This document shows, piece after piece, positions 1 through 6,236 of a DNA stretch of 6,236 nucleotides. Position 1 is the stretch's first letter; every line of letters starts with the position of its first letter. Under the pieces are notes generated by a model, which ran no database searches, was not told where the DNA came from, and was given only the letters and a program-made list of their open reading frames with translations. A program made the translations under genes and the position numbers. The DNA is from Microcaldota archaeon (GTDB lineage Archaea > Micrarchaeota > Micrarchaeia > Micrarchaeales > Micrarchaeaceae), in NCBI GenBank assembly GCA_021828345.1, contig JAJZJI010000072.1, forward strand, positions 1 to 6,236, in the 5' to 3' direction.

Positions 1-99
1 ATGCTAGAGAATAATCTTGGTGAAGATGGAACTATTACTGTGCCTAAACCTCTTGCAGATATAAGTGGTATAAATGAAATTAAAAAGTCAGCTGATTAG
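1..99 (+). CDS. serS: Probable seryl-tRNA synthetase, C-terminal end (partial)
   Basis: The reading frame is open from the first base and ends at TAG 97-99, giving 32 residues of a protein whose main part lies outside the window. The stretch LENNLGEDGTITVPKPLAD resembles the last segment of seryl-tRNA synthetase, where a run of the type 'ENxQxEDGxxxIPExL' follows motif 3 of the class II catalytic domain. If so, the enzyme charges tRNA-Ser with serine in the cytoplasm. The ATG at base 1 is probably an internal methionine, not the start. The identification rests on one short stretch, so the function is moderately supported, while the existence of a coding end here is more secure. Confidence 0.6.
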   Translation: MLENNLGEDGTITVPKPLADISGINEIKKSAD

Positions 100-331
100 T
101 GGGTTGCAAATCAATTGATTATAAAGAGGAAATAATTGATGTTATAATGTTAATTAGCAAAAAATCCGGGATAGGTGATGTTTGGTTTCAAGGGAATTGG
201 GTCATTGGCACGGAAACGGAGCGATGCACGCAAAACATATTGTTGCACTAGGACTGGGTTTAATATTTCAGTGCAGCGATTACGAACTTTTTGATGAATT
301 GGGCATAAAAATAATATTGTTTAGAGTTTAA
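99..331 (+). pseudogene. Possible small broken gene in two overlapping frames
   Basis: I do not recognise this gene. One frame opens with a GTG at 99 that overlaps the preceding TAG stop and runs 50 codons to TAG 249-251; it includes KKSGIGDVWFQGNWVIGT. A second frame, shifted by -1, is open from 179 (possible TTG at 182) to TAA 329-331 and reads in part GAMHAKHIVALGLGLIFQCS followed by an acidic and then a hydrophobic stretch. Both halves look more protein-like than chance AT-rich translation, and one shift between 179 and 251 would join them into a protein of about 75 residues. No good ribosome binding site precedes the GTG. It may be a decayed gene, a sequencing or assembly error, or two coincidental frames. 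The GC content is higher than in the flanks, so a structured RNA is also possible (see the hairpin at 242-277). Confidence 0.3.
242..277 (+). other. 8-bp hairpin inside the unexplained upstream region
   Basis: GTTGCACT at 242-249 pairs with AGTGCAGC at 270-277 across a 20-base loop, with one G-T pair. It lies in the moderately GC-rich stretch 165-300 of an otherwise AT-rich spacer. It could be part of a structured RNA or chance within coding sequence. Confidence 0.3.
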
Positions 332-405
332 ATTCGATTCTCGTCTTTATAAATTTTCATTAAACTGCCTAGTTTTTGGTATTTAACAAAAAAGAGAATT
401 ATACT

Positions 406-423
406 CAACTAGCTTGTTAGTTG
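406..423. repeat. Short inverted repeat upstream of the psmA promoter
   Basis: CAACTA (406-411) and TAGTTG (418-423) are perfect inverted halves separated by six bases. The element sits about 12 bases upstream of a strong TATA box, where archaeal regulators often bind. Operator function is inference; a 6-base arm can arise by chance. Confidence 0.35.
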
Positions 424-434
424 CAATAAATGAC

Positions 435-447
435 AAATATTTATAAA
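435..447 (+). promoter_or_regulatory. TATA box for the psmA operon leader
   Basis: The sequence AAATATTTATAAA matches an archaeal BRE/TATA element well. Transcription would begin about 25 bases downstream, near 470, giving a leader of roughly 110 bases before psmA. Identical 8-base direct repeats TTGCAATA lie on each side, at 421-428 and 455-462. The downstream copy falls between TATA box and expected start site, a position where a bound protein could block initiation. Confidence 0.5.
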
Positions 448-484
448 CCTTAAATTGCAATAGTATCTGTAGAAGAGTAATAGC

Positions 485-543
485 GAGGTGGCAGTTTGCG
501 ACCAAATGTGCGTTATAGCATATATGGGCATGTTGCAGGCTAA
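485..543 (+). CDS. Mini-ORF (15 codons) in the psmA leader, with strong RBS
   Basis: GAGGTGG at 485-491 is the closest match in the window to the archaeal Shine-Dalgarno sequence, and it sits five bases before a TTG at 496-498. The frame reads MRPNVRYSIYGHVAG and stops at TAA 541-543, 35 bases before the psmA start. It falls just after the transcription start predicted from the TATA box at 435-447. I see no similarity to a known protein. It could be a leader peptide that tunes psmA translation, the head of a destroyed gene, or a chance frame. An ATG-started alternative (506-550, 14 codons) overlaps it in another frame but lacks the good spacing. Confidence 0.3.
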
Positions 544-550
544 TCCTTAG

Positions 551-574
551 TTTTTATAATATTAATATTGGTGA
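551..574 (+). promoter_or_regulatory. psmA proximal TATA-like element and ribosome binding site
   Basis: TTTTTATAAT at 551-560 resembles a TATA box, and GGTGA at 570-574 is a Shine-Dalgarno sequence four bases before the psmA ATG. The two conflict as a single unit: initiation about 25 bases after this TATA would fall on the start codon and remove the binding site. Either this is a second, leaderless start or, more likely, the upstream TATA at 435-447 drives the gene and the AT-rich run is incidental. Confidence 0.4.
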
Positions 575-578
575 AAAT

Positions 579-1274
579 ATGTATCCGAATATACAGGCGT
601 ATGATAGGGGAGTAATGTTCAGTCCTGATGGAAGGCTGTTTCAAGTTGAATATGCAAAGGAGGCTGTTAGAAAAGGGGCTACGGCAATAGGAATGGTTGC
701 AGATACTGGTGTGGTATTCGTTGCACATAAAAATATTACAGAGCAACTTGCAATTCCAAGTTCATTACATAAAATATTTAGAGTGGATTCATATATAGGA
801 GCAACCTATTCTGGGATGACATCTGATGGACTTCGCGTTATAAATTTGATGCGTGGGAAGACACAGACGCATAGAATGATTTATGACGAGACACAGTCGG
901 TTGAGAATGTTGCCCGTGATATATCAGAAGAGATGCAGATGGCGACGCAGTATGGAGGCATAAGGCCATATGCAATATCGCTTTTAGTTGGAGGTATAGA
1001 TACAGAGCCGCGATTATATGAGGTTGACCCTGGCGCTGCATTTATGGGTTATAAGGCTGATGCGATAGGTGTTGGTAAGAAAATAGCGGAAGATATGCTA
1101 ATAAAGGATTATAAAGATAATATAAGTATCGATGATGCAATATCACTTGGTATTAAAATAATAACAAAAGCAACAGAAAAGAAATCGGAGAGCGATAATT
1201 TAGAGGTATCTGTTATAGACAAGAAGAATGGATATGTGTTATACGATACAAAACAGGTAGATAAGTATCTATAG
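579..1274 (+). CDS. psmA: 20S proteasome alpha subunit
   Basis: This 231-residue protein is an archaeal proteasome alpha subunit, which forms the outer heptameric rings and gates entry of unfolded substrates to the beta-subunit chamber in the cytoplasm. The hallmark N-terminal signature [13 protein letters not shown] spans residues 14-26, preceded by the gate motif YDR at 8-10. [18 protein letters not shown] at 124-141 is the conserved central strand region. Lys51 in HKN lies near the pocket lysine that anchors the C-termini of regulatory ATPases. The length is normal for the family (about 230-260). The start is supported by GGTGA four bases upstream. The loop between YDR and FSPDG appears one residue shorter than the usual [12 protein letters not shown]. 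It is the first gene of a tightly spaced operon; no beta subunit lies in the window. Confidence 0.96.
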   Translation: [231 protein letters not shown]

Positions 1275-1296
1275 AAGCACAATATACGGTAATAAA

Positions 1297-1980
1297 ATGT
1301 CAGATAAAGCGATAATCATTAAGTATACGAAGAATGGAGATATATTTGAGGTCTTTATAGACCCAAATCTCGCATACGAATATATAACAGGAAAGCGAAG
1401 CGATCCAGTCCAGGTTCTTGACGTTGAGACAATATTCAAGGATGCAAGAAAAGGGGAGCGCCAAAGCGAAGAGAAAATAAAGAAGGCCTTCGGTACTAAT
1501 GACATTGCAAAAATAGCAGAGACAATATTAAAAAATAGTGATATACCGCTTACTACAGAGCAGAAGCGCAAGCTAACTGAGGAGAAGAGAAAGCAGATAA
1601 TAAACATAATAGCAACAAACTCGATAGATCCAAGAACAAATGCGCCAAATCCCCCTCTTAGGATAGAGAATGCGATGAATGAATCACGTATCTCAATAGA
1701 TCCAATGAAAAGCGCAACAGAACAGGTTGATTCAATAGTAAAAAAAATTAGTCTGCTTTTGCCTATAAAGTTTACAACGGCAAAGATACAGGTGACTATT
1801 CCGGCGGATGCTGCAAATAGGTGCTATGGCATAATAAAGCGTTATGGGCTCAAGTCAGAGGAGTGGCTCTCTAACGGAAATTTGCGCGTTGTTGTTGAAT
1901 TTCCTGCAGGGTTGCAGAATGAGTTTTTTGATAGAATAAATAAGGCAACAGAAGGAAGGGCTGAAACAACAATTTTATAA
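1297..1980 (+). CDS. SBDS family ribosome maturation protein (Sdo1)
   Basis: This 227-residue protein is the archaeal homologue of SBDS/Sdo1. In eukaryotes that factor acts with the GTPase EFL1 to release the anti-association factor eIF6 from the large ribosomal subunit; the archaeal protein is thought to act on the large subunit too. The three-domain family layout is visible: an N-terminal domain with YTKNGDIFEVFIDPNLAYEY (residues 10-29), a middle helical domain with LTTEQKRKLTEEKRKQII (85-102) and IDPRTNAPNPPLRIENAM (110-127), and a C-terminal ferredoxin-like domain from about 160. The length is normal. The ATG follows GGTAAT, 22 bases after psmA. Its place between the proteasome and exosome genes is the typical euryarchaeal arrangement. 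Confidence 0.95.
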   Translation: MSDKAIIIKYTKNGDIFEVFIDPNLAYEYITGKRSDPVQVLDVETIFKDARKGERQSEEKIKKAFGTNDIAKIAETILKNSDIPLTTEQKRKLTEEKRKQIINIIATNSIDPRTNAPNPPLRIENAMNESRISIDPMKSATEQVDSIVKKISLLLPIKFTTAKIQVTIPADAANRCYGIIKRYGLKSEEWLSNGNLRVVVEFPAGLQNEFFDRINKATEGRAETTIL

Positions 1981-1994
1981 GGAGATGTATTTTT

Positions 1995-2666
1995 ATGAAG
2001 AAGATTGCAATACCAGGAGATGAAATATCAAGTATACCAAAAAGGGTTAATGGAACATATATAGATAAGGGGAAAACATATGCATCAACAATAACGATGG
2101 TGGATAGTGATACTGGACATCTATTGCCTTTGGAGGGCGCCTGGTCGCCGCGGTTGAATGATACTGTTGTAGGCGTTGTAACAATGGTAAAGAACCATGT
2201 GTACGAGGTTGATCTGTCACATTTTGGTCGTGGTTTAATAATAGAAGGAAAATTTGATAAACTATCATTAAGCGTTGGAGATATAGTGGATGCAAGGGTT
2301 AGGGATATAGAGGATAGGAAGACCGTAATACTTGAAAATCCAAGAAAACTATATGGAGGTATACTTGTTAGTATAAAGCCTGCAAAGGTGCCGCGTGTAA
2401 TAGGTAAAGAGAACACAATGGTTAAAACTATATCTAGCATAACTGGTTCACGACTTGCCGTTGGCTATAATGGTACTATATGGATAAGCGGTGGGGATCA
2501 GAGTGCGGCTCTTATTGCAATAGAGGTTATAGAAAATGAGGCTCATACATCAGGTCTTACAGAGCGTGTGCGTATTATGCTTGAGAAGATTGTAAAACCT
2601 GAATTCAAAGAGCTCCAAAAGCAGCGCGAGAAAAATGAGCGCGATAATAAAACTGATTGGGAATAA
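1995..2666 (+). CDS. rrp4: Exosome complex RNA-binding protein Rrp4
   Basis: This 223-residue protein is the Rrp4 cap subunit of the archaeal exosome. Three copies sit on top of the Rrp41-Rrp42 ring and bind and guide RNA into the pore. The domain order is an N-terminal beta domain (about 1-48, starting with the conserved PGDEI at 7-11), an S1 domain (about 52-118), and a KH domain (about 130-185) with VPRVIGKENTMV at 132-143 where the GxxG-type loop lies. The C-terminus is highly charged (Lys/Glu-rich after residue 200) and may be flexible. The start follows GGAGATG, 14 bases after the SBDS stop. The length matches the family. Confidence 0.95.
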   Translation: MKKIAIPGDEISSIPKRVNGTYIDKGKTYASTITMVDSDTGHLLPLEGAWSPRLNDTVVGVVTMVKNHVYEVDLSHFGRGLIIEGKFDKLSLSVGDIVDARVRDIEDRKTVILENPRKLYGGILVSIKPAKVPRVIGKENTMVKTISSITGSRLAVGYNGTIWISGGDQSAALIAIEVIENEAHTSGLTERVRIMLEKIVKPEFKELQKQREKNERDNKTDWE

Positions 2667-2694
2667 TGTTAATATTTTATAAAAAGGTAATGTA

Positions 2695-3441
2695 ATGGGA
2701 TCATCATCAAATAAACCAGAACTTTTAAAAAATGGAAAAAGGTTGGACGGACGAGATTTTAATGAATTAAGAGAGCTTAAGATAGAGGCTGGCATACTAA
2801 AGAATGCTGACGGTTCGGCATATTTGGAGTGGGGCAATAATAAAGTTCTTGCTGCAGTTTATGGACCAAAAGAGGCTGTTCCAAAACATTTTGCAGATCC
2901 AACAAAGGCTGTTATAAAATGCAGATATGCAATGGCGCCATTCTCATCACTTGAGGATCACGGGCGAACTGGCCCTAATAGGCGCGCTATAGAGATTTCA
3001 AAGGTTGCAAAAGAGGCATTTGAGAATGTTATAATATTAAATGATTATCCTGGAGCACAGATAGATATCTTTATGGAGATTTTACAAAGTGATGGCGGGA
3101 CACGCGCCGCAGGAATAACTGCTGCCGCAGTTGCGCTTGCAAATGCCGGTATACATATGCGTGATCTAATATACTCTGTGTCTGTTGGGAGAATAGGTGA
3201 GCATATGGCAATAGATGTTAACAAAATAGAGGATAATTATTCTGATGCTGATATGCCTGTTGCAATATCACCAAGAAATAATGAGCTATTACTTCTTCAG
3301 ATGGATGGAGGATTGACAAAAAAACAGTATGAGGAATCCATGGTAATGATATTAGAGGCGGGAAAGAAGATACATGAAGTGCAGAGAAAAGCATTGGAGG
3401 ATTACTATTCAATAAATAAAAAGAATACAGAACAAGAATGA
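2695..3441 (+). CDS. rrp41: Exosome catalytic RNase PH subunit Rrp41
   Basis: This 248-residue RNase PH-fold protein is the catalytic subunit of the exosome, which degrades RNA 3'-to-5' using phosphate and can also add tails. The family opening GKRLDGRDFNELRELKIEAG is at residues 14-33. The RNA- and phosphate-binding residues are present: NRR at 95-97, QSDGGTR at 131-137. The catalytic acidic pair is seen as Asp180 and Asp186 in IEDNYSDADMPVA (178-190). All of these argue that it is active. Rrp41 pairs with Rrp42, encoded next, to form a hexameric ring. An AAAAGGTAAT binding site precedes the ATG, 28 bases after rrp4. The stop is TGA, showing that TGA is a stop codon in this genome. Confidence 0.96.
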   Translation: MGSSSNKPELLKNGKRLDGRDFNELRELKIEAGILKNADGSAYLEWGNNKVLAAVYGPKEAVPKHFADPTKAVIKCRYAMAPFSSLEDHGRTGPNRRAIEISKVAKEAFENVIILNDYPGAQIDIFMEILQSDGGTRAAGITAAAVALANAGIHMRDLIYSVSVGRIGEHMAIDVNKIEDNYSDADMPVAISPRNNELLLLQMDGGLTKKQYEESMVMILEAGKKIHEVQRKALEDYYSINKKNTEQE

Positions 3442-3450
3442 GATGATTAT

Positions 3451-4227
3451 ATGGAGATAATAAATACATTAAAAGGAGAGCATATTAAGGAATTGTTGAA
3501 AAACAATAGAAGAATAGACACAAGGGCATTTATGGAGATGCGACATGTTAAAGTAAAACGCGGCGTTCTTCCACAAGCGGAAGGATCAGCACAGGTGGAC
3601 TTGGGTACTACAAAGGTTTTAGTAGGTATTAAATTAATGCCTGATGATCCAATGCCAGATACTCCAAATCAGGGTAATCTTATAACGAGCGCAGAGCTTT
3701 TGCCGCTTGCACATCCTGAATATGAGACTGGCCCTCCATCTAGCGAATCTATAGAGCTTGCCCGTGTTGTCGATAGGGGCATACGTGCAGGTAATTGCAT
3801 AGATTTAGAGAGTTTGGTGCTTGAGGATAAGAAGGTATGGAGCGTATATATCGATTTGTATATTTTAAATTTTGGTGGCAATCTTTTTGATGCAAGTACA
3901 ATGGCTGCAATGGCAGCGCTTTTAGATACAAAGATACCAAAGTATGAGAATGGGATTGTAGTAAGAGAGGAAAGGGTTAAAAGCCTTAAGATTGATAATA
4001 TTGTGTCATCAACTACGTTCGGCAAGATAGATAATTATATGCTTCTTGATATGAATGACAACGAGGAGGGCATGGCTGATGCAAGAGTGACTATATGCAC
4101 GGATGGCACAAGCATTCGGGCAATGCAGAAGGGTCTGAGCGGCTCATTTAAGCCAGAAGAGATTGGATCGCTCATTGATGTTTCATTAAATGAGCATGAG
4201 AAGATTAAAAGAATACTAGAGAAGTAA
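3451..4227 (+). CDS. rrp42: Exosome RNase PH-like subunit Rrp42
   Basis: This 258-residue protein is the second RNase PH-fold subunit of the archaeal exosome ring. Family marks are RRIDTRAFMEMRHV (20-33), GSAQVDLGTTKVLVGIK (45-61), the LLPLAHPEYETGPPSSES segment (83-100) and NLFDASTMAAMAALLDTKIPK (144-164). The position where Rrp41 has its catalytic DxxxED...AD arrangement instead reads DMNDNEEGMADARVTI (200-215), as is usual for the non-catalytic Rrp42, which shapes the active site at the Rrp41 interface and binds RNA. The start follows GAGATGA, only 9 bases after the rrp41 stop, so the two subunits are likely translated in step. The length is normal. Confidence 0.95.
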   Translation: MEIINTLKGEHIKELLKNNRRIDTRAFMEMRHVKVKRGVLPQAEGSAQVDLGTTKVLVGIKLMPDDPMPDTPNQGNLITSAELLPLAHPEYETGPPSSESIELARVVDRGIRAGNCIDLESLVLEDKKVWSVYIDLYILNFGGNLFDASTMAAMAALLDTKIPKYENGIVVREERVKSLKIDNIVSSTTFGKIDNYMLLDMNDNEEGMADARVTICTDGTSIRAMQKGLSGSFKPEEIGSLIDVSLNEHEKIKRILEK

Positions 4228-4240
4228 ATGGTGTATTTTT

Positions 4241-4477
4241 ATGGTAAATTCAAGTGTTAGATACGGAGCAAGAATAAGAAAGCAATTTTCCGCAGTCAAG
4301 AAGGATAAAATTGCATTGTATAAATGCCCTTCATGCGGCAAGATTTCGGTAGAGCATATAAGCACCGGAATATGGAAATGCAGACGTTGCGAGCGTACTT
4401 TTGCTGGTGGCGCATATACACTTACAACACCTAGCGGAGAGGCATCAAAGCGCCTAATCGAAGGTATAAAGGATTAA
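4241..4477 (+). CDS. rpl37ae: 50S ribosomal protein L37Ae (eL43)
   Basis: This 78-residue zinc ribbon protein belongs to the L37Ae/eL43 family of the large ribosomal subunit. It has the family opening VRYGARIRKQ (6-15). The four zinc ligands are Cys29 and Cys32 (CPSC) and Cys47 and Cys50 (CRRC), followed by ERTFAGGAYTLTTPSG (51-66), the conserved C-terminal segment. It lies 13 bases after rrp42 behind a GGTG binding site and is probably in the same transcript. The length is slightly short of many archaeal homologues but includes all conserved parts. Confidence 0.94.
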   Translation: MVNSSVRYGARIRKQFSAVKKDKIALYKCPSCGKISVEHISTGIWKCRRCERTFAGGAYTLTTPSGEASKRLIEGIKD

Positions 4478-4493
4478 TGGTTAATAGGTGCAT

Positions 4494-4853
4494 TTGATAA
4501 AAATATCAGTATCTCCTGTCCAGGAGCTAATAATACACGAAGTAGTAGAGGTTGATTATAATGATCTGCTTCGCGAGCGCATAACGCCTGCGGGCAACAT
4601 GCCATTATATTGGTGTGATAGTATACTCTTTAGTTTTTCATCTCTGCCGATGAGCGATGAGGTGGTTAAAGATTATATGAATGGGAAGATACACTGGATG
4701 GAGGTGCATTATACCCCAATGAATAATTATATACCAATACTTGAGCTAGTTGATAATGATCTTAAATCAACATTCAAAATAAGAAATATTGATACTTCAA
4801 AGTCAAAACTTCATAAAGAGTTCATAAAGTGGTTAAAGTCAAGAAAGGAGTAG
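4494..4853 (+). CDS. Unrecognised 119-residue protein between rpl37ae and rpoP
   Basis: I do not recognise this protein. It is soluble, with no signal peptide or membrane segment. It has an N-terminal strand-rich part (IKISVSPVQELIIHEVVEVD), then ITPAGNMPLYWCDSILFSFS, then KIHWMEVHYTPMNNYIPILE, and a Lys-rich helical tail ending in KWLKSRKE. The balanced composition and long open frame in a tight operon argue for a real gene. The start is not ATG: AGGTG at 4486-4490 places a TTG at 4494 at good spacing; a GTG at 4488 would add two residues but overlaps the binding site. Many archaea have rpoP and the KEOPS subunit gene pcc1 after rpl37ae. This protein does not look like Pcc1, which is shorter and built differently. 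Confidence 0.75.
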   Translation: MIKISVSPVQELIIHEVVEVDYNDLLRERITPAGNMPLYWCDSILFSFSSLPMSDEVVKDYMNGKIHWMEVHYTPMNNYIPILELVDNDLKSTFKIRNIDTSKSKLHKEFIKWLKSRKE

Positions 4854-4865
4854 GAGTTAATAAGA

Positions 4866-4877
4866 TTTATATATTTA
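4866..4877 (+). promoter_or_regulatory. TATA box of rpoP
   Basis: TTTATATATTTA is a near-ideal archaeal TATA box. Initiation about 25 bases downstream would fall near 4897, giving a leader of only a few bases. GTGAT at 4894-4898 could still serve as binding site if transcription starts slightly earlier or comes from upstream. This gives rpoP a promoter separate from the long operon. Confidence 0.6.
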
Positions 4878-4901
4878 AAGTTGATTAATTAGAGTGATAT
4901 A

Positions 4902-5033
4902 ATGCCATATACTTGTGCTAATTGCGGAAAAAAGATTAAAGATTTTGCCGGATTTGTTAGATGCCCCTATTGCGGTTCTAAGATATTTACAAAGAGCAGG
5001 CCTAACATAACAAGGGAAGTCTCAACAGATTGA
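4902..5033 (+). CDS. rpoP: RNA polymerase subunit P (Rpo12/RpoP)
   Basis: This 43-residue zinc ribbon protein is the small RNA polymerase subunit P, equivalent to eukaryotic Rpb12, which helps hold the Rpo3-Rpo10-Rpo11 assembly platform. It is too short for most ORF cut-offs but complete. The two zinc-binding pairs are Cys5/Cys8 (CANC) and Cys21/Cys24 (CPYC). The family pattern RCPYCGSKIFTKSRP (20-34) is unmistakable. Its position downstream of rpl37ae matches other archaea, although one unrecognised gene separates the two here. It ends in TGA. Confidence 0.9.
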   Translation: MPYTCANCGKKIKDFAGFVRCPYCGSKIFTKSRPNITREVSTD

Positions 5034-5180
5034 TAAATATTAAATTTATTGATTTAAAGCGCATCTGATTTAAATCTTAAAACCTATGCTATTGATGATA
5101 ACATACATGTGTGTTACGCAGCAAAACTTAACTAATTTGTAATAAGGCAGATAGGCGAATAAGTAAATTTGGTATTTTGT
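5034..5180. other. AT-rich spacer after rpoP, no gene seen
   Basis: This 147-base spacer breaks the tight spacing seen upstream. It has two copies of TGATTTAAA (5050-5058 and 5067-5075). An 18-codon frame (MLLMITYMCVTQQNLTNL) has no binding site and is not convincing. I see no tRNA or convincing box C/D RNA. Confidence 0.4.
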
Positions 5181-5390
5181 ATGTTCGAGGATATGACTAA
5201 TATACGGACAATCGCAAGAAAATTTGCTATTAAAAATGCATTAGATTATGGCAAAGCTGGTGTCGGTATAGTTCTAAATAAACTTTTTGAGGATCCTGAT
5301 GTTAGAGGATTTGATATAAATAAATTAAAGGAAATTGTAAATAATGTTGTAAAAGTTGATTTGGCGAATTGGTTTGGAGAAGAAGATTAG
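5181..5390 (+). CDS. Truncated or stand-alone glutamyl-tRNA synthetase N-terminal domain
   Basis: The 69-residue product resembles only the helical N-terminal domain of archaeal/eukaryotic-type glutamyl-tRNA synthetase. Characteristic runs are IARKFAIKNALDYGKAGVG (residues 11-29), VLNKLFEDPDVRG (31-43) and LKEIVNNVVKVD (49-60), matching the family pattern ALxNAxxYGKAxxGxVLxKxxxxPxLR...IVxxVxxVN. The catalytic domain that should follow, with its HIGH-type motif, is absent: the frame stops at TAG 5388-5390, and no frame downstream shows that motif before the radical SAM gene. ATG 5181 is preferred over an upstream TTG at 5169, since GGT lies about seven bases ahead; an ATG at 5193 is also possible. 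It may be a leftover cut by a rearrangement, or a free-standing domain. It cannot charge tRNA by itself. Confidence 0.6.
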   Translation: MFEDMTNIRTIARKFAIKNALDYGKAGVGIVLNKLFEDPDVRGFDINKLKEIVNNVVKVDLANWFGEED

Positions 5391-5392
5391 GG

Positions 5393-5417
5393 ACTTCGCT
5401 ATTCAAAGTGGCGAGGT
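5393..5417 (+). terminator. Hairpin after the synthetase fragment, possible terminator
   Basis: ACTTCGC (5393-5399) pairs with GCGAGGT (5411-5417), extended by a T-G pair, around a 9-base loop, three bases after the stop codon. It is followed by AT-rich DNA but not by a clean T-run, so it may be a processing signal or chance rather than a terminator. Confidence 0.3.
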
Positions 5418-5456
5418 TAAATATTTAAATGTTTTCAGCGAGCTTTTATTGGTGAT
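5418..5456 (+). promoter_or_regulatory. Promoter and RBS of the peptide/radical SAM cassette
   Basis: TAAATATTTAAAT at 5418-5430 is a good archaeal TATA box. Its expected start site, about 25 bases downstream, is near 5450, and GGTGAT at 5451-5456 is a strong Shine-Dalgarno sequence. The pair points to a dedicated promoter for the following peptide and enzyme, with a very short leader. Confidence 0.5.
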
Positions 5457-5459
5457 AAT

Positions 5460-5636
5460 GTGGATGGAAGCGGTTATATGGTAACGAGTGGTGTAAATTT
5501 GATAACAATAGATAACTTTGGTCGAGTAAAACTAAATGGAATTGAATTTAAAGGAAAGCCTGATGTATTTGTTGCGGAGGAAACGGGGTGTCACAATTCT
5601 CAATGTTCTTGCAAACCTGCTAATAATCATTGTTGA
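5460..5636 (+). CDS. Candidate RiPP precursor: small peptide with Cys-rich tail
   Basis: This frame encodes 58 residues from GTG 5460, or 52 from ATG 5478, ending at TGA 5634-5636. The GTG lies three bases after GGTGAT; the ATG lies 21 bases after it, so the GTG is a serious candidate. From the ATG, residues 1-36 form a leader-like part without cysteine that includes LITIDNFGRVKLNGIEFKGK (9-28). The tail is GCHNSQCSCKPANNHC with Cys38, Cys43, Cys45 and Cys52, a CX4C-CXC-CX6C pattern. A conserved-type leader with a short Cys-rich C-terminal core, encoded 46 bases before a radical SAM/SPASM-type enzyme, is the layout of sactipeptide or ranthipeptide precursors, in which the enzyme makes thioether links from cysteine. 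I recognise no known family member. Alternatives are a metal-binding peptide or part of a broken upstream end of the enzyme gene. Confidence 0.55.
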   Translation: MDGSGYMVTSGVNLITIDNFGRVKLNGIEFKGKPDVFVAEETGCHNSQCSCKPANNHC

Positions 5637-5682
5637 AGATGAAAAATTGTTTAATATTGATGTATTGTGTATTTGTGATTGA

Positions 5683-6236
5683 TTGTCAAGTTTCTTAGAA
5701 AATTATGCTTCTAATAATGTTCTTGATTTAATAATATTACCTACAGAAGGGTGTAATTTTAGGTGTGATTATTGTTATGAAAACTTTAAAATCGGCAGGA
5801 TGAAGTCTGAAGTAGTAGAGAGTATAAAGAAGCTGATTTCAAATAGAGCTAAGGATTTAGAATATATTTCACTTTCTTGGTTTGGAGGAGAACCACTTTT
5901 GGCCAGTGATATAATAATCGATATTATGTTATATATAAAAGAAATTCAAATGCAGAATAAAAAATTAATTGTAGCGTCAAGAATTACAACAAATGGGTAT
6001 CTGTTATCTTATAATTTATTTACAAAATTGGTTAATTTAGGGGTAAATGAATTTCAGATAACTTTTGACGGCTATAAAAATGAACATGATAAATTAAGGC
6101 ATTTAGCTAATGGTGGGCCATCATTTGATAAAATATGGAATAATCTTAGAACAATACATATGTCAAATTTGAATTTTTTGATTACTATACGCGTCCACGC
6201 AAACAGCAATAATTTTAATAGTATACTTAATCTATT
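5683..6236 (+). CDS. Radical SAM peptide-maturase-like enzyme (partial)
   Basis: The 184 visible residues are the N-terminal part of a radical SAM enzyme that continues past the window. The [4Fe-4S]/SAM motif is Cys24-X3-Cys28-X2-Cys31 in TEGCNFRCDYCYE (21-33). SWFGGEPLL (65-73) is the SAM-amino-group GGE motif. ITTNGYLLS (101-109) and FQITFDGYKNEHDKLRH (124-140), then FDKIWNNL, are typical of the SPASM/twitch subgroup that modifies peptides or proteins, including thioether-forming maturases and sulfatase-maturase relatives. The start must be after the in-frame TGA at 5680-5682; TTG 5683 follows directly, with GTGAT at 5675-5679 as binding site. This leaves only 23 residues before the first cysteine, shorter than in many maturases that carry an N-terminal peptide-recognition domain. 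GC in sampled lines is about 22-28%, well below the operon. The C-terminal SPASM cysteines are not in view. Confidence 0.85.
   Translation, partial: MSSFLENYASNNVLDLIILPTEGCNFRCDYCYENFKIGRMKSEVVESIKKLISNRAKDLEYISLSWFGGEPLLASDIIIDIMLYIKEIQMQNKKLIVASRITTNGYLLSYNLFTKLVNLGVNEFQITFDGYKNEHDKLRHLANGGPSFDKIWNNLRTIHMSNLNFLITIRVHANSNNFNSILNL

Follow-up and report, generated by a model that had tools for sequence, protein, structure and literature searches.

A Cys-rich peptide and a compact radical SAM enzyme as a probable RiPP cassette, with candidate Cys-Asn thioethers, in an archaeal contig

In streptococci, the radical S-adenosylmethionine (SAM) enzyme NxxcB forms a bond between Cys23 and the beta-carbon of Asn20 of its precursor NxxcA, and the mechanisms proposed include abstraction of the Cbeta hydrogen followed by thiolate addition, or a thiolate held on an auxiliary cluster (PMC8326336, PMC13361665). 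The pair belongs to the NxxC subfamily of RaS-RiPPs and its product is a ranthipeptide, a kind of ribosomally synthesized and post-translationally modified peptide (RiPP). PapB, which acts on the Cys-rich core of PapA to give the ranthipeptide freyrasin, also forms Cys-Cbeta thioethers between near neighbours; it links Cys to a later Asp or Glu (CX3D), a reaction discussed as guided by a RiPP recognition element (RRE) (PMC9413430). Two further thioether makers are CteB, the SCIFF maturase of CteA, whose auxiliary cluster has an open site, and SkfB, the sporulation killing factor maturase, which has an RRE and, in its twitch-type end, a single auxiliary cluster whose visible ligands number three, and which makes a Calpha thioether to Met. 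Genome mining has yielded RiPP clusters, including ranthi- and sactipeptides, from archaea, DPANN among them (PMC12144867), and nine RiPP-related clusters from acid mine drainage DPANN genomes (PMC12153355); according to the former, only two lanthipeptides from predicted archaeal pathways had been validated before that 2025 paper's own work. Here we describe a candidate cassette of this kind, a small Cys-rich peptide and a radical SAM enzyme, at the end of the first 6,236 nt of contig JAJZJI010000072.1 (assembly GCA_021828345.1), the whole of which we call the window.

An earlier note on this DNA had read a small peptide with a Cys-rich end and, 46 nt later, a radical SAM enzyme, and both were borne out. 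The 58-aa open reading frame (ORF) terminates in GCHNSQCSCKPANNHC, 46 nt separate it from the TTG start of the enzyme, and CNFRCDYC, FGGEP and FQITFDG...HDKLR lie in the enzyme's frame, which matched Pfam Radical_SAM at 78.7 bits. A short precursor with a conserved leader and a variable C-terminal core was found next to the modifying enzyme in several genomes, as expected of a RiPP pair. Precursor and maturase very probably constitute a real RiPP cassette.

We took neighbourhoods of homologous enzymes from plasmids (66 records, of which eight loci and one duplicate were read) and viral contigs (37 loci), and also searched genomes from the phylum to which the Sedimentisphaerales record G001 belongs. 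The family was defined with profile scores as 23 non-duplicate loci with compact enzymes, the window included. We left out L021 and L057, which duplicate L020 and L015 respectively, kept L042 although its enzyme is cut by a contig end (87 bits), and placed L028 (570 aa, 206 bits, above the 188 bits of L016) among the controls on account of the additional Cys in its longer end. The controls were the other 31 radical SAM loci with a profile match, the second match of L051 being left out. In a strict test, an ORF of 25-160 aa, at most 1 kb away and on the enzyme's strand, had to carry an 11-residue leader pattern and then at least two Cys with C-x(0-4)-C. This was found at 11 of the 23 family loci versus none of the 31 control loci, with a background of 0.35% per locus in shuffled flanks and 0/23 on the reverse strand. 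By eye we added L016 (an annotated coding sequence), L055, L058, L059 and L019 (ORF 6039-6257, with a looser leader). The earlier note had staked its proposal on Cys-rich ORFs adjoining homologous enzymes elsewhere, and a small ORF with the shared leader and following Cys does adjoin the enzyme at 16 of the 23 loci (15/22 without the window). The same note's expectation that the four cysteines themselves would be conserved did not hold literally: their number and spacing vary, and it is N-x-x-C that recurs, two of the four window Cys lying in such units. Another Cys-tailed small ORF, signal-peptide-like by eye, was seen on the viral contigs L023, L024, L025 and L042, with CG[IV]xC tails in L023, L024 and L042 and a longer Cys-rich stretch in L025; these are perhaps a second precursor type.

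At E 1e-40, 3 of 294 G001-phylum genomes gave matches, two of which belong to the compact family; at E 1e-60, 3 of 101 did so, two being new, and further genome searches in that phylum gave no new loci. A search of genome contigs with the incomplete window enzyme gave just two distant loci, the 17 records from the phage collection were all below 60% identity, and a scan of viral contigs with P0003 alone, a full-length relative of the window enzyme, gave nothing useful.

The element of the window peptide that stands above chance is the leader, whereas the Cys tail lies within chance. With a score matrix built from the leaders of 15 relatives, the window left out, ITIDNFGRVKLNGIEF in the precursor ORF scored highest among the 5290 places of the window (15.5 bits, second 8.1). 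That score was reached in 0/300 shuffled windows, and 1 of 20,000 shuffles of peptide residues 7-42 did as well; leave-one-out scores of the 15 leaders themselves ranged from -7.4 to 37.3. Four Cys among the 16 codons that precede a stop occur at four places in the window, and at least once in 128 of 300 shuffled windows, and we rejected the Cys tail on its own as evidence. A structure model of the 52-aa form weakly predicts a beta-hairpin at the leader motif (pLDDT 74 for residues 11-20, 57 for the whole), and is too weak to serve as a basis.

We then compared 22 cores, that of the window and 21 from the loci of 18 relatives, with limits set by eye and expected counts obtained by shuffling non-Cys residues inside each core. 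The precursor core of L059, which would add two Cys without NxxC, and the second copy of L042 were left out. Asn stood at position -3 from Cys for 32 of 71 Cys versus 9.8-9.9 expected (z 8.2), and 20 of the 22 cores had at least one NxxC unit; 0/5000 shuffles reached either 32 Cys or 20 cores. Among 174 residue-offset pairs, Asn -3 was the largest, an extreme seen in 0/4000 shuffles, and Asn -4 came next (z 4.0). The bias persisted in the 16 cores that remain without L018, L019, L020 and the window (16 Asn -3 versus 4.9 expected, 14/16 cores, no shuffle in 5000 as high). L018 and L020 have two precursors per enzyme, placed on either side of it in L018 and both downstream in L020; a single precursor has as many as six core Cys and as many as five NxxC units.

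P0003 (321 aa, 90% identical) is compact, with six Cys: the CX3CX2C and three in a twitch-like end. In an alignment of 116 of the 120 matches listed (P0055, P0077, P0094 and P0103 left out), the CX3CX2C Cys were kept in all 116 sequences and the three C-terminal Cys each in at least 114. The latter form a CX18C...C pattern with a Gly before the second Cys (C252, C271, C315), and the auxiliary cluster itself is predicted from sequence. Since only three C-terminal Cys are conserved, we rejected the full SPASM maturase that had been proposed for this enzyme. The check for an RRE also came out negative: the first CX3CX2C Cys is residue 24, with one short helix before the first strand, which leaves the enzyme's N-terminus no room for an RRE. 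Leader recognition must differ from that in systems with an RRE in the enzyme, unless a free-standing RRE is encoded beyond 6236.

Against NCBIfam, P0003 scored 135.1 bits with TIGR04463 (curated cut-off 525), 126.7 with TIGR04334 (Clo7bot; 600), 107.9 with NF038107 (CefB; 600) and 90.6 with the PapB model NF047865 (340), all far below the cut-offs, and membership in these families was rejected. The first three, all named peptide maturases, are its best family-model relatives; unlike them, P0003 lacks about 80 N-terminal positions, the match starting at model position 79-86. No Pfam or NCBIfam model gives the class a name. Compared with solved folds, the enzyme's predicted fold was closest by Z to CteB (24.9), tied with anSME, and EpeE came well below both; absence of a family from this comparison's list does not rule that family out. 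The tree left P0003 among a few deep branches without a settled place, one of them with P0068 of Vulcanisaeta.

The cassette works like the NxxC ranthipeptide system in having an NxxC unit in the core of a short precursor beside a radical SAM maturase, with a Cys-Asn bridge as the expected product; its enzyme lacks a full SPASM domain. A Cys-Asn thioether is the likeliest reaction because of the same i, i+3 spacing, the CteB-like fold and the apparent three-Cys auxiliary site. Of the thioether-bridged product that the earlier note had proposed, the precursor-maturase pair stands, and the spacing of NxxC narrows the bond to a putative Cys-Asn link of the ranthipeptide type, from Cys to a non-alpha carbon. 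We consider this whole explanation, mechanism included, somewhat probable on the sequence evidence. The enzyme would recognize the leader without an RRE of its own, probably through a small beta-hairpin around DNFGRV, as the weak precursor model hints. A 5'-deoxyadenosyl radical made at the CX3CX2C cluster would take a hydrogen from the Asn of the core N-x-x-C units, and the Asn carbon, most likely Cbeta as with NxxcB, would be joined to the sulfur of the Cys three residues later. A single putative auxiliary cluster on the three C-terminal Cys may hold the thiolate or accept the electron. In the window the expected links would be Asn46-Cys49 and Asn55-Cys58.

The same pair could instead make another thioether, from sulfur to the Calpha of Asn or of another residue (a sactionine). 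SkfB, whose twitch-type end our enzyme appears to share, makes a Calpha bond, although to Met and with an RRE, unlike here. Calpha and Cbeta are indistinguishable from sequence, and the Asn at -3 reproduces the spacing of NxxcA, which is bridged at Cbeta; we regard a sactionine as unlikely. A still less probable alternative is a RiPP pair with other chemistry, epimerisation or a C-C bond, the Cys serving for metal binding or disulfides. Against it, the spacing in NxxC is fixed with respect to Cys, and EpeE ranks well below CteB and anSME.

Several results weigh against a Cys-Asn-forming RiPP pair. A sequence search with the precursor found just its own sequence (P0001, P0002) and no other homologue. 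An HMMER profile of the same leaders placed the precursor ORF first of 242 frames, yet at 4.0 bits (shuffled windows: median 3.8, top 11.6), and so fails to separate the peptide from shuffles. Together with the chance-level Cys tail, these two results favour a small ORF that is no substrate at all, a chance ORF or an unrelated small protein with the enzyme acting elsewhere. The leader match falls in the right frame, strand and place, and the same arrangement recurs at 15 of the 22 other family loci; we therefore think a non-substrate very improbable. The pair reading must also contend with a regular expression, core limits and a family cut that were fixed after the peptides were seen, and with the lack of any precursor at three of the 23 family loci (L013, L014, L022). 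As to the Cys-Asn bond, the window core alone (NSQC and NNHC, 2/4 Cys, p 0.17) is not significant and its other two Cys have no Asn at -3; NxxC is lacking in the cores of L016, L058 and the left-out L059; and neither two additional viral scans nor two class-wide searches of genomes turned up further loci for a held-out NxxC test. Foldseek ranks anSME first, which makes formylglycine and no thioether. The predicted C-terminus of the window enzyme rests on P0003, the window copy being incomplete. NxxcB, unlike our enzyme with its three-Cys twitch-like end, is described as SPASM-containing, and the hosts differ; the likeness to NxxcA/NxxcB is one to published descriptions and implies no orthology to NxxcB.

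More tentatively, at slightly less than even confidence, the loci may represent a widespread RiPP class, unnamed in the libraries searched, whose leader is hairpin-like (I-x-x-D-x-x-G-R-V-x-I), whose cores carry NxxC and whose enzyme is compact and RRE-less, with three plus three cysteines. Such an enzyme would recognize its leader without an RRE and form Cys-Asn beta-thioethers across bacterial phyla into small-celled DPANN archaea. This chemistry, described from streptococci in the literature surveyed, would then reach both groups. Open-access titles and abstracts included none on a class with such a leader or enzyme, although subscription literature might describe one, and no open-access paper combined NxxC, radical SAM and archaea. 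If the Cys-Asn reading is right, the enzyme, of about 320 aa and with six Cys, would be a minimal thioether maker of the radical SAM type that could show what the auxiliary cluster is needed for, with a leader-recognition mode that dispenses with the RRE and a concrete prediction of the bond, from Asn at i to Cys at i+3, in an archaeal peptide. The leader plus NxxC pattern provides a search key for other genomes.

The features of the window are listed below.

Features of the window (feature, position, strand, remark)
Proteasome alpha	579-1274	+	archaeal
SBDS	1297-1980	+	
Rrp4-like exosome protein	1995-2666	+	weak model match; name partly from gene order
Rrp41	2695-3441	+	
Rrp42-like protein	3451-4227	+	name partly from gene order
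L37Ae	4241-4477	+	
RpoP-like zinc ribbon	4902-5033	+	weak model match
73-aa ORF	5169-5390		unmatched in Pfam (E 0.1) and NCBIfam (E 0.01)
TATA-box-like AAATATTTAAAT, upstream of precursor ORF	5419-5430	+	sequence only; TTTAAA 9 times in window
Shine-Dalgarno-like GGTGAT	5451-5456	+	3 nt before GTG 5460, 21 nt before ATG 5478
Putative precursor peptide	5460-5636	+	58 aa from GTG; 52 aa if start is ATG 5478
Leader motif ITIDNFGRVKL	5502-5534	+	common to precursors adjoining homologous enzymes
Cys-rich C-terminal core GCHNSQCSCKPANNHC	5586-5633	+	such a tail can arise by chance
NxxC motif 1, N46-S-Q-C49	5595-5606	+	
NxxC motif 2, N55-N-H-C58	5622-5633	+	
Radical SAM maturase, first 184 aa	5683-6236	+	TTG start; frame open to window end
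CNFRCDYC, CX3CX2C ligands of SAM-binding iron-sulfur cluster	5752-5775	+	
FGGEP	5881-5895	+	

Both signals that the earlier note had called a promoter and strong binding site are present upstream of the precursor, and their strength was not borne out, given the 3-nt spacing to GTG and the nine copies of TTTAAA; GGTGAT occurs twice on the + strand of the window. The database protein P0002 (52 aa) begins at the in-frame ATG, and P0001 has 58 aa. Neither Pfam nor NCBIfam searches matched the precursor. At L019, a MazE/AbrB-domain ORF (4690-4875, 30.8 bits) is located immediately upstream of the family enzyme; it has an NCTC tail and a motif similar to the RiPP leader. We considered whether the leader might derive from AbrB/MazE but dropped the idea, L019 having a better downstream candidate and the window peptide no Pfam match.

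The upstream part of the window is filled by an archaeal housekeeping run on the + strand, in agreement with an archaeal contig; our names for Rrp4 and Rrp42 depend in part on gene order, and the 73-aa ORF resembles the N-terminal part of the archaeal glutamyl-tRNA synthetase, here encoded separately. Among the 120 proteasome matches listed, eight carry an organism name (identity 66-77%), four 'Candidatus Marsarchaeota archaeon' and four Micrarchaeaceae, Micrarchaeota or Micrarchaeia, labels that conflict. These names do not support the earlier note's hint at methanogens, and on sequence we hold with moderate confidence that the host is a Micrarchaeota-like (DPANN) archaeon; NCBI taxonomy places Micrarchaeota, there Microcaldota, under Nanobdellati. 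The close relatives P0130, P0139, P0152 and P0210 mix Marsarchaeota and Micrarchaeota labels, which suggests misnamed public genomes. The G+C content falls from 38.0% (1-4500) through 32.4% (4500-5450) to 29.2% (5450-6236), which would fit a recent arrival of the cassette and hints at horizontal transfer.

Copies on plasmids and on IMG/VR contigs classed as viral suggest that the cassette may travel on mobile elements. Four of the eight plasmids read were typed conjugative (L009, L010, L015, L016) and four non-mobilizable. Possible export genes were seen near family enzymes, namely a C39-peptidase ABC transporter (L019), MacB/FtsX-like permeases (L020) and an outer-membrane efflux protein (L010). 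The window's product would be exported, likely as a secreted signalling or antagonistic peptide. On the Deinococcus plasmid of L014 (1-3764), lantibiotic dehydratase genes lie near the family enzyme and an oxidoreductase gene directly precedes it.
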